Part shown: piece by piece, positions 38,221 to 40,125 of the stretch
How positions within the stretch are numbered: position 1 is the first letter of the stretch
How the letters are laid out: each line of letters starts with the position of its first letter
Source: Asaia prunellae JCM 25354
GTDB taxonomy: Bacteria > Pseudomonadota > Alphaproteobacteria > Acetobacterales > Acetobacteraceae
Direction of reading: 5' to 3'
Length of the DNA: 64,000 nt
Assembly: GCF_000613885.1 (NCBI RefSeq)
Contig: NZ_BAJV01000015.1
Location: 1-64,000, forward strand
Made by a program: the position numbers and the translations under genes
Notes under the pieces: generated by a model
What the model was told of the DNA's origin: nothing
Database searches by the model: none
Seen by the model: only the letters and a program-made list of their open reading frames with translations

Positions 38221-38583
38221 TTACTCTGATGCCGGAAGGGGGCCGTACCGCAATGTCGTGGCGCCGGCATCCAGATGTGGCAGAGAACCATGACGCTCTG
38301 TGAACGCCTCCCGCTCCAGGCGTTCACAATAGTCCAGATAGCGGATCATTGCCCGTTCGGCCCTTGGCGTAGCGCCATACAGTTTCTTGTAATGACGCCA
38401 GAGAATGAGCGCATTGACCGACCAGGCATCATACACATGTTCAGTCAGACGATGTCGGATTGTCTGCGGCAGGGCGTCGAAAGCGGCCCAGGGATCGCCT
38501 TCATACCGGCGCCAGAGCGTCTTGCGACAGGTGCCATCATTGGTGAATTCGGTGGAGGATGAGAGGAGAGAAAGTGCGCGCAT
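38221..38583 (-). CDS. small DUF6525-like protein
   Basis: A 120-residue soluble basic protein with the stretch WRRYEGDPWAAFDALPQTIR and DAWSVNALILWRHYKKLYG. This pattern resembles the alphaproteobacterial DUF6525 family, whose function is unknown; the assignment is from memory. It begins at an ATG that lies inside the left edge of a perfect 28-bp palindrome, so it is probably controlled by whatever binds there, or the true start is further in. Confidence 0.7.
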   Translation of the reverse strand: MRALSLLSSSTEFTNDGTCRKTLWRRYEGDPWAAFDALPQTIRHRLTEHVYDAWSVNALILWRHYKKLYGATPRAERAMIRYLDYCERLEREAFTERHGSLPHLDAGATTLRYGPLPASE

Positions 38584-38609
38584 ATAGTTATGTTATAACA
38601 TAACTATAT
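38582..38609. promoter_or_regulatory. perfect 28-bp palindrome with Zur-box-like core
   Basis: A fully symmetric 28-bp sequence centred at 38595/38596. The core ATGTTATAACAT resembles the alphaproteobacterial Zur box consensus (TGTTATA-TATAACA type) and also holds TATAAC/GTTATA -10-like hexamers on both strands. It sits in the divergent gap between the DUF6525-like gene and amn, overlapping the first codon of the former. The palindrome is seen directly; binding by Zur or any other dimeric regulator is inference. Confidence 0.75.
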
Positions 38610-38673
38610 CAACGTCTATCTCTTGTCTGCACAAAAGGCTAGCCTTTGACGAAATCCGTACCTTCAGAGGTGT

Positions 38674-40125
38674 ATGATGAGCGCAGCAGGGCAGGACAAA
38701 CTCTTCGATCAGGTCGGATCAGGCTTCATGCCTTTTCACGATGCTGAAGCCGCGCTTGACCGTATCGAGGCGCTTTATGATGAAGGGGTGAAACATCTGC
38801 GTGACAGCTTTGCCGCTAGAAAACCGGCAGAGGCGTTTTATCCCTGTCTGGCTTTTTCTCTGGCAAATGGCTCAATTCCCGTGGACGTGAAGCCGCGTTT
38901 TGGTGTGCTGCTCGAACCCGGTTTCTACAGCACGACACTGACCCGTCCTGCCTTGTTCCGCAGCTACTGGCGCGCGCAGATTGATAATCTGGTCAACTGT
39001 TATCGTCAGCCTGTGCATGTCGGTCTTTCCAGACGACCGATACCCCTGCCTTATGTCATGGAAGAAGCTGTTACCGGGCTGACCGAGGCCGATCTCAGAC
39101 GGCTGCAGGACAATTATGCCCTGCCAGATCTGCACAGAACCGATGACACTATTGCCAATTGCGAGATCATACCCGATCCGGAAGCACCGCGTGCCCTCGC
39201 GCTTTTTACGGCCGAACGCACCGATTATTCCCTGGCGAGGCTGCATCACTATACCGGTACGGCGCCACGTCATTTCCAGCGGTTCATCCTGCTGACCAAT
39301 TACCAGCGCTATGTCGATAATTTCCGCGACTATGCACGTGCGCAGGTCAATGCTGGTGGTGAATATCATGCGTTTGTAGAGCCTGGTGACGCATTTTACA
39401 CCCGGGCGGGCCAGGAAGGGCAGGCTGCGTCCTCATTGCCGCAAATGCCCGCCTATCATCTGTGTCGCGAGGATGGCGATGGCATCACGCTGATCAATAT
39501 CGGTGTTGGCCCCTCCAATGCCAAAACCATTACCGATCATCTGGCTGTGCTGCGTCCCCACTGCTGGCTGATGGTCGGTCATTGTGCTGGACTACGTCGT
39601 ACGCAACTTCTGGGTGATTACGTTCTGGCTCACGGTTATGTTCGTGATGACCATGTTCTTGACGATGATCTGCCAACCTGGGTGCCGGTGCCTCCCATTG
39701 CCGAGGTGCAGGTTGCCCTGCAGCAGGCCATGCAGAAAGTGACAGGTCTGGAAGATCGTGAAATCAAGACAAGGCTGCGCACGGGTACGGTCATGACGAC
39801 CGATAATCGTAACTGGGAGTTGCGTTTGCGTGCGCTTTTCACGCAGATCAACATGAGCCGATCGATTGCGGTCGACATGGAATCAGCCACGATCGCGGCC
39901 AATGGTTTTCGCTTTCGTGTTCCCTACGGCACGTTGCTCTGCGTGTCGGACAAACCGCTTCATGGCGAACTCAAGCTGCGGGGAATGGCCAATGCCTTCT
40001 ATCGTGAGCGCGTCAGTCAGCATCTGATGGTGGGTATCGAAACCATGCGGCTTTTGCGCGAACGCGGTGTTGACAGCCTGCATTCGCGCAAGCTGCGCGG
40101 TTTCGATGAACCGGCATTCCGTTAA
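38674..40125 (+). CDS. amn: AMP nucleosidase
   Basis: Amn cleaves AMP to adenine and ribose 5-phosphate, regulating adenylate pools. It has 483 residues; an N-terminal regulatory domain (YYPCLAFS-like FYPCLAF, RFGVLLEPG, YYTTLTRP-type YSTTLTRP) precedes the phosphorylase-like catalytic domain. MPAYHLCREDGDGITLINIGVGPSNAKTITDHLAVLRPHCWLMVGHCAGLRRTQ contains the nucleoside-phosphorylase glycine loop and GHCAGLR; AVDMESATIAANGFRFRVPYGTLLCVSDKP is the C-terminal binding motif. Its promoter lies by the 28-bp palindrome. Confidence 0.95.
   Translation: MMSAAGQDKLFDQVGSGFMPFHDAEAALDRIEALYDEGVKHLRDSFAARKPAEAFYPCLAFSLANGSIPVDVKPRFGVLLEPGFYSTTLTRPALFRSYWRAQIDNLVNCYRQPVHVGLSRRPIPLPYVMEEAVTGLTEADLRRLQDNYALPDLHRTDDTIANCEIIPDPEAPRALALFTAERTDYSLARLHHYTGTAPRHFQRFILLTNYQRYVDNFRDYARAQVNAGGEYHAFVEPGDAFYTRAGQEGQAASSLPQMPAYHLCREDGDGITLINIGVGPSNAKTITDHLAVLRPHCWLMVGHCAGLRRTQLLGDYVLAHGYVRDDHVLDDDLPTWVPVPPIAEVQVALQQAMQKVTGLEDREIKTRLRTGTVMTTDNRNWELRLRALFTQINMSRSIAVDMESATIAANGFRFRVPYGTLLCVSDKPLHGELKLRGMANAFYRERVSQHLMVGIETMRLLRERGVDSLHSRKLRGFDEPAFR

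Follow-up and report, generated by a model that had tools for sequence, protein, structure and literature searches.

A perfect 28-bp palindrome of Asaia prunellae JCM 25354 is very probably a docking site of the zinc uptake regulator Zur, and the gene under its control is most likely that of a small DUF6525 protein rather than the divergent AMP nucleosidase gene amn. On the basis of comparative sequence analysis, it is highly likely that the palindrome is a Zur operator with DUF6525 as its zinc-starvation target in the Acetobacteraceae and Rhodobacteraceae, and DUF6525 is accordingly predicted as a new member of the Zur regulon. The box, the zinc genes that share it and its tie to DUF6525 can be read directly from the DNA. 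The window analyzed here is the whole stretch of 64,000 nucleotides at the start of contig NZ_BAJV01000015.1; its relevant features are listed in Table 1.

Table 1. Features around the palindrome between DUF6525 and amn.
Feature	Position in the window	Strand	Remarks
DUF6525 gene (PF20135), predicted Zur target	38221..38583	-	start codon overlaps palindrome edge
28-bp perfect palindrome, predicted Zur operator	38582..38609	.	full 28-mer common to A. siamensis and G006
Core 18-mer GTTATGTTATAACATAAC, two overlapping GTTA-N5-TAAC Zur elements	38587..38604	.	motif as defined in PMC4176598
Putative -10-like element of DUF6525, TAACAT	38590..38595	-	inside the box, 6 nt before ATG
Putative -35-like element of DUF6525, TAGACG	38613..38618	-	17 nt from the -10-like element; plus-strand (C/T)GTCTATC conserved in Asaia
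Second palindrome of 14 bp, AAAGGCTAGCCTTT, possible amn promoter element	38634..38647	.	GGCTAGCCT or a close variant conserved in Asaia
amn, AMP nucleosidase, divergent neighbor	38674..40125	+	profile matches, amn-locus comparison

Geometry of the palindrome

The palindrome ATATAGTTATGTTATAACATAACTATAT consists of two arms of 14 nt (38582-38595 and 38596-38609), which are 100% complementary and follow each other without a loop. At the base composition of the window, chance would yield 0.0003 such palindromes per window and 0.014 in a genome of 3.18 Mb. In a first-order Markov simulation of 100 windows, the longest arm was 11 nt, as compared to the 14 nt observed. The two GTTA-N5-TAAC elements of the core (38587-38599 and 38592-38604) are offset by 5 bp, and the core ATGTTATAACAT has a single occurrence in the whole genome. 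The exact 18-mer was also seen in 24 viral contigs (L082-L105).

The edge of the palindrome overlaps the ATG of the DUF6525 reading frame on the minus strand, and the ATG of amn (38674 or 38677) lies 65 or 68 bp past the palindrome end. The product of the small gene belongs to the DUF6525 family, with 60 bits against a Pfam gathering cut-off of 23.5. The initial annotation, which had proposed a perfect 28-bp palindrome improbable by chance, its overlap with the start codon of the small gene and the DUF6525-like nature of this gene, was correct on each of these points.

The same element at zur and znuA of A. prunellae

It is known that GTTA-N5-TAAC is a Zur motif conserved in many proteobacteria, as used in a study on Caulobacter crescentus (PMC4176598); the Asaia palindrome differs in having two overlapping copies of it. 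The exact 13-mer GTTATRWTATAAC occurs at only two places of the 3.18-Mb genome, namely in the palindrome and in the divergent promoter of zur and znuA, which reads GTTATAATATAAC. Thus, the core had rightly been called Zur-box-like. The zur gene (L109, 1459-1968) encodes a Fur-family protein and adjoins the gene of ZnuA, which was identified by Pfam. By this position and by its best PDB matches, a Fur-family chain (7dh7) and Escherichia coli Zur (4mtd), the protein is a Zur, though its score of 118 bits is below the cut-off of 167 bits of the NCBIfam Zur model.

The motif was controlled with the best 30 zur loci, zur having been found in 130 of 150 genomes. ZnuA was encoded divergently in 13 of these 30 loci, and an exact GTTA-N5-TAAC was present within 400 bp upstream of zur in 11 of the 13. 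In the same 400-bp search, none of the 17 loci without a ZnuA match carried it.

When one mismatch to GTTATRWTATAAC was allowed, six further places were found in the genome, as compared to one forward and one reverse match of the reversed control. One of these elements precedes the gene of a TonB-dependent receptor (Pfam Plug; L324, about position 1501; G000:C26:41229-41241) by about 70 bp. The site TATGATATAACAT (L107, 1501-1518; G000:C33:110516-110533) lies between a receptor-like gene, a candidate zinc receptor assigned by reading of the open reading frame (no match in Pfam and NCBIfam), and a royal-jelly/SMP-30-like gene. The genes at the remaining one-mismatch places, coding for MesX, triosephosphate isomerase, PdxJ and a Hint-domain protein, suggest no role in zinc metabolism, and these places were therefore taken as chance matches.

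Comparison to known Zur boxes

The Zur motifs of Paracoccus denitrificans are GTTACGATATAACAT at znuA and GTAACGTAATAACAT at pden1338, and the promoters of both genes were tested in gel shifts (PMC5387054). The half-site pattern and the kinds of genes concerned (zur/znuA, COG0523) are alike in Asaia. However, the Asaia box is a longer, perfect palindrome, and its DUF6525 gene is separate from COG0523. The E. coli Zur box is bound by two dimers (PMC6103462; 4mtd), and overlapping dimer sites are plausible in Asaia too, where the outermost T/A of the E. coli box is unmatched. The palindrome matches the E. coli consensus TRWNAYRWTATAWYRTNWCA in 18 of 20 positions; since unrelated places of the window reach 17 of 20, this motif is too loose to discriminate and adds little. 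Clusters of COG0523 genes under Zur, with DUF1826, were described by Haas 2009 (PMC2770081). The clusters found here are of a like kind with DUF6525 added, a family unnamed in the available parts of that cluster account.

Conservation of the inner box across Asaia

The AMP nucleosidase of the window shares 87-91% identity (best segment) with six Asaia records. When the site was recognized by its flanks, the core was found to be kept between amn and DUF6525 in all nine Asaia genomes. Only A. siamensis (L002) and genome G006 share the full 28-mer of the window without change; the other six genomes retain the inner part of the palindrome alone, with substitutions. Since the full 28-mer is rarely retained, the inner box rather than the whole 28-mer is taken as the functional unit.

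It is extremely improbable that the palindrome arose by chance or is a structural element of DNA or RNA such as a terminator. The variation of the outer arms in most Asaia would fit such an origin, but the low number expected per genome, the retention of the core in every Asaia genome and the strong enrichment of the box at DUF6525 loci described below argue against it, and a search for terminator-like sites found none.

With one mismatch allowed, TATGTTATAACRT was found at two to four places per Asaia genome (reversed control: zero to two matches per strand). The TATGATATAACAT site is present in 9/9 Asaia genomes, its gene context having been read in A. prunellae only (L107). Further one-mismatch sites were noticed in G001 (C33) and on C36 of A. 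prunellae. In G005, the Zur-like TATGTTATAACGT (L114, 1501-1513) lies between the gene of a NicO-family nickel/cobalt transporter and a gene that was considered TonB-receptor-like by reading.

Five Asaia genomes (G002-G005, G008) carry the perfect 18-mer at a further site. It is located just upstream of a ZigA-type COG0523 gene in all five Asaia genomes having that gene, and in the three contexts read (L120, L122, L132) the box is flanked by genes of a DUF1826-type protein and the COG0523 GTPase. The family scan, done for L120 only, gave its GTPase 579 bits on the ZigA model, of which the cut-off is 600. The other four of the nine Asaia genomes, A. prunellae included, possess only COG0523 paralogs of 32-43% identity, with two of these four genomes being less than 90% complete. 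As these four genomes keep the DUF6525 site without a ZigA-type gene, DUF6525 would seem able to work in the absence of ZigA.

The checks proposed together with the initial annotation thus came out in favor of Zur: the motif is present at zur/znuA of the same genome rather than absent from its zinc genes, an identical 18-mer precedes the COG0523 gene of five other Asaia genomes, and the palindrome is conserved in relatives as far as its inner box is concerned.

The box at amn loci with and without DUF6525

The best 80 of 412 relatives with amn were searched for the box within 350 bp upstream of amn. DUF6525 adjoins amn in seven of these 80 loci, i.e., in six Asaia and in Acidomonas. In all seven, the best match in this interval scored 13/18 or higher, a value reached by none of 200 shuffles in each case. 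By contrast, none of the 73 amn loci without DUF6525 exceeded 11/18 in the same interval. These 73 controls comprised 47 loci of Acetobacteraceae/Rhodospirillales (L008-L054) and 26 from outside, namely five of other groups and 21 of Cupriavidus or Ralstonia. The upstream intervals were counted from the tblastn match, which begins at residue 82 in L050, so that the interval of this locus is not truly upstream. The contrast of 7/7 to 0/73 indicates that the box goes with DUF6525, and amn was therefore rejected as the primary target.

DUF6525 loci in Acetobacteraceae and Rhodobacteraceae

Of 150 Acetobacteraceae genomes searched for DUF6525, 39 contained it. In a second family, it was detected in 31 of 100 genomes; this family is called Rhodobacteraceae here because the plasmid records matching its DUF6525 are from Paracoccus, Roseivivax and alike. 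A class-wide search yielded 13 of 385 genomes, six of them over the cut-off, in three families. The Acetobacteraceae set comprised 27 stretches (25 non-Asaia loci with strong matches, A. prunellae and a further Asaia, G002 being excluded). A separate count was kept for 14 weak or divergent loci. The Rhodobacteraceae set comprised 31 stretches, i.e., 30 of the 34 places from the search of this family and one from the class-wide search.

A match of at least 14/18 was present in 21 of the 27 Acetobacteraceae and 19 of the 31 Rhodobacteraceae stretches. The null means were 0.30 and 0.21, respectively, and none of 200 permuted palindromes reached the observed counts. No box at 14/18 was found in the 14 divergent or weakly matching loci (L224-L237). 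The 73 amn loci without DUF6525 gave two matches of at least 14/18 anywhere in the stretch, with a null mean of 0.43 and as many matches in 17 of 200 permutations.

A box was assigned to a transcription unit if it lay no more than 250 bp from the unit front and matched in 13 or more of 18 positions; this cut-off was controlled by the amn-only loci (0/73), the permutation null covering 14/18. By this measure, 19 of the 25 non-Asaia Acetobacteraceae loci and 18 of the 31 from Rhodobacteraceae have a box in front of the unit, be it DUF6525's own or that of the COG0523 operon. It is missing in 6/25 and 13/31 loci, respectively. Among the 13 Rhodobacteraceae misses, the operon front lies beyond the stretch in five, two have DUF1826 only upstream, and six are true misses at this cut-off.

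The gene order at these loci varies. DUF6525 follows COG0523 on its downstream side, whether or not DUF1826 is present, in 10 of 25 Acetobacteraceae and 18 of 31 Rhodobacteraceae loci; the COG0523 of L212 is no more than a short piece. In two of the 31 Rhodobacteraceae loci, it follows DUF1826 alone. DUF6525 faces amn in four of the 25 Acetobacteraceae loci, each with a box. In 11/25 and 11/31 loci, respectively, DUF6525 stands alone, which means that the stretch showed none of COG0523, DUF1826 and amn upstream of it; not all other genes of the stretch were identified. A box of at least 13/18 is present at 9 of these 11 units in Acetobacteraceae and 8 of 11 in Rhodobacteraceae. The boxed genes standing alone argue that DUF6525 itself is under Zur control and does not merely ride with COG0523.

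The initial annotation had treated the small gene as incidental and had proposed that Zur links zinc status to adenylate turnover via amn. Its Zur part holds, but DUF6525 is the likely target, and the link via amn is not supported, since none of the 73 amn loci lacking DUF6525 showed the box upstream and a box accompanies DUF6525 where amn is not its neighbor. Control of amn as well, or mainly, by the Zur box, tying zinc status to adenylate breakdown, is considered unlikely. Such control would be in line with the position of the box in the promoter region between the two divergent genes, where its core ends about 70 bp short of the amn start in A. prunellae, and with the retention of the boxed DUF6525/amn arrangement in Asaia and in one genome each of four further genera of the family. 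However, besides the amn loci without box, amn is found beside DUF6525 in only 4/25 non-Asaia Acetobacteraceae and 0/31 Rhodobacteraceae loci, most others keep the box, and the presumed promoter elements of amn lie downstream of it. It is doubtful, and a little more so, that the box acts both ways in Asaia and the genera with this gene order, zinc starvation inducing both DUF6525 and the AMP nucleosidase. If this were true, adenylate breakdown with its release of adenine and ribose-5-phosphate would have joined the zinc response once DUF6525 and amn faced each other. Among the open-licence PMC papers searched, Zur and AMP nucleosidase were found together only in a Corynebacterium glutamicum FtsH proteomics study.

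A zinc-responsive operon of Paracoccus

The plasmids of P. ferrooxidans and P. versutus carry genes for a GTP-binding protein, DUF1826 and DUF6525 in this order, the DUF6525 protein of P. ferrooxidans being annotated as hypothetical and recognized through similarity. In P. ferrooxidans, GTAACGTAATAACAT is located 19-33 bp before the start of the GTPase gene. The Zur motif of pden1338 is located 19-33 bp upstream as well (PMC5387054); the operon box was equated with it because sequence and position are identical. pden1338 belongs to COG0523, and the next two genes, pden1339 and pden1340, are hypothetical; promoter DNA of motif-bearing P. denitrificans genes was shifted by Zur (PMC5387054). According to the same published account, pden1338, pden1339 and pden1340 were upregulated 13.2-, 10.6- and 8.6-fold in zinc-depleted medium and 9.8-, 9.6- and 8.3-fold in zinc-chelated medium. 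From the gene order and the identical upstream box in the relative, we infer that pden1340 encodes DUF6525. The genes beyond the operon differ (arsH on the plasmids vs. an ABC transporter in PD1222), and the match is therefore limited to the operon. When 394 genomes were searched for the published P. denitrificans box, a single match was obtained, located close to the end of a contig of G805.

These data also bear on the regulator. Palindromes of this kind suit many dimers, and A. prunellae possesses a second Fur-family gene (G000:C36); nevertheless, use of the palindrome by this protein or by a GntR- or TetR-type repressor is quite improbable, since the same element occurs at zur/znuA and COG0523 genes, and its close variant in the Paracoccus operon equals the box that was gel-shift tested in P. 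denitrificans (PMC5387054).

The DUF6525 protein

The DUF6525 sequence of the window was aligned with those of 47 hand-chosen loci out of 65 extracted. Among the 48 sequences, L38, P39, R43 and W54 are invariant; no Cys or His is invariant, and no conserved set suggesting a zinc site was seen. The AlphaFold model is all-helical (mean pLDDT 78.7, pTM 0.66). A Foldseek search of the PDB with this model gave no match at E ≤ 0.001 and 11 at E ≤ 10. The best VIA-align hit, a chain of a Vpr complex with Z 4.0, is too low for a helical protein, and no fold was assigned. A PHROGs search with DUF6525 gave no match.

In the DUF6525-like subfamily without box, W-C-P, once W-C-S, was read by eye in 10 of the 14 loci (L224-L231, L233, L237), at about the position where the Zur-linked family shows W-S or W-A. 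Both kinds were matched in genomes G080 and G109. A pair of zinc-using and zinc-free DUF6525 paralogs was considered but is not argued here.

Proposed regulation of DUF6525

On the minus strand of A. prunellae, TAGACG-N17-TAACAT is followed by six bases and the ATG of DUF6525. In eight aligned Asaia sequences, the spacing between the box and the conserved (C/T)GTCTATC is constant and free of gaps; the DUF6525 start codon is less certain in A. lannensis. A generic sigma-70 promoter scan listed one weak plus-strand match and not the TAGACG/TAACAT pair. Judged by this layout, the box probably overlaps the DUF6525 promoter, with transcription starting at or near the start codon. The amn promoter may include the second palindrome, which lies some 27-30 bp ahead of amn.

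From these positions, we infer binding of Zur at the palindrome, repression and the location of the promoters as follows. When zinc is plentiful, zinc-loaded Zur, encoded next to znuA, would bind the two overlapping 13-bp elements, cover the -10 region and the start of the minus-strand DUF6525 transcript and thereby block RNA polymerase, so that the gene would be off. When zinc is short, Zur would lose its zinc and leave the DNA, and DUF6525 would be expressed. Production of DUF6525 would often go along with that of a ZigA-type COG0523 GTPase, and at times also of DUF1826, whereas in Asaia and some related genera the gene would form a separate unit that faces amn by coincidence.

The operator is an ordinary kind of element; what is new is that DUF6525 is assigned to the Zur regulon. 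The open-licence PMC papers searched contain neither the term DUF6525 nor a pairing of Asaia with the zinc uptake regulator. The analysis also does away with an appealing but hitherto unsupported connection of zinc to AMP nucleosidase. The unstudied DUF6525 family gains a predicted setting, zinc starvation, in two large alphaproteobacterial families, and the question of whether DUF6525 acts within or independently of the poorly understood ZigA/COG0523 zinc system becomes directly testable. Since it retains such a box in many related bacteria, DUF6525 seems to have been missed as a component of their response to zinc shortage.
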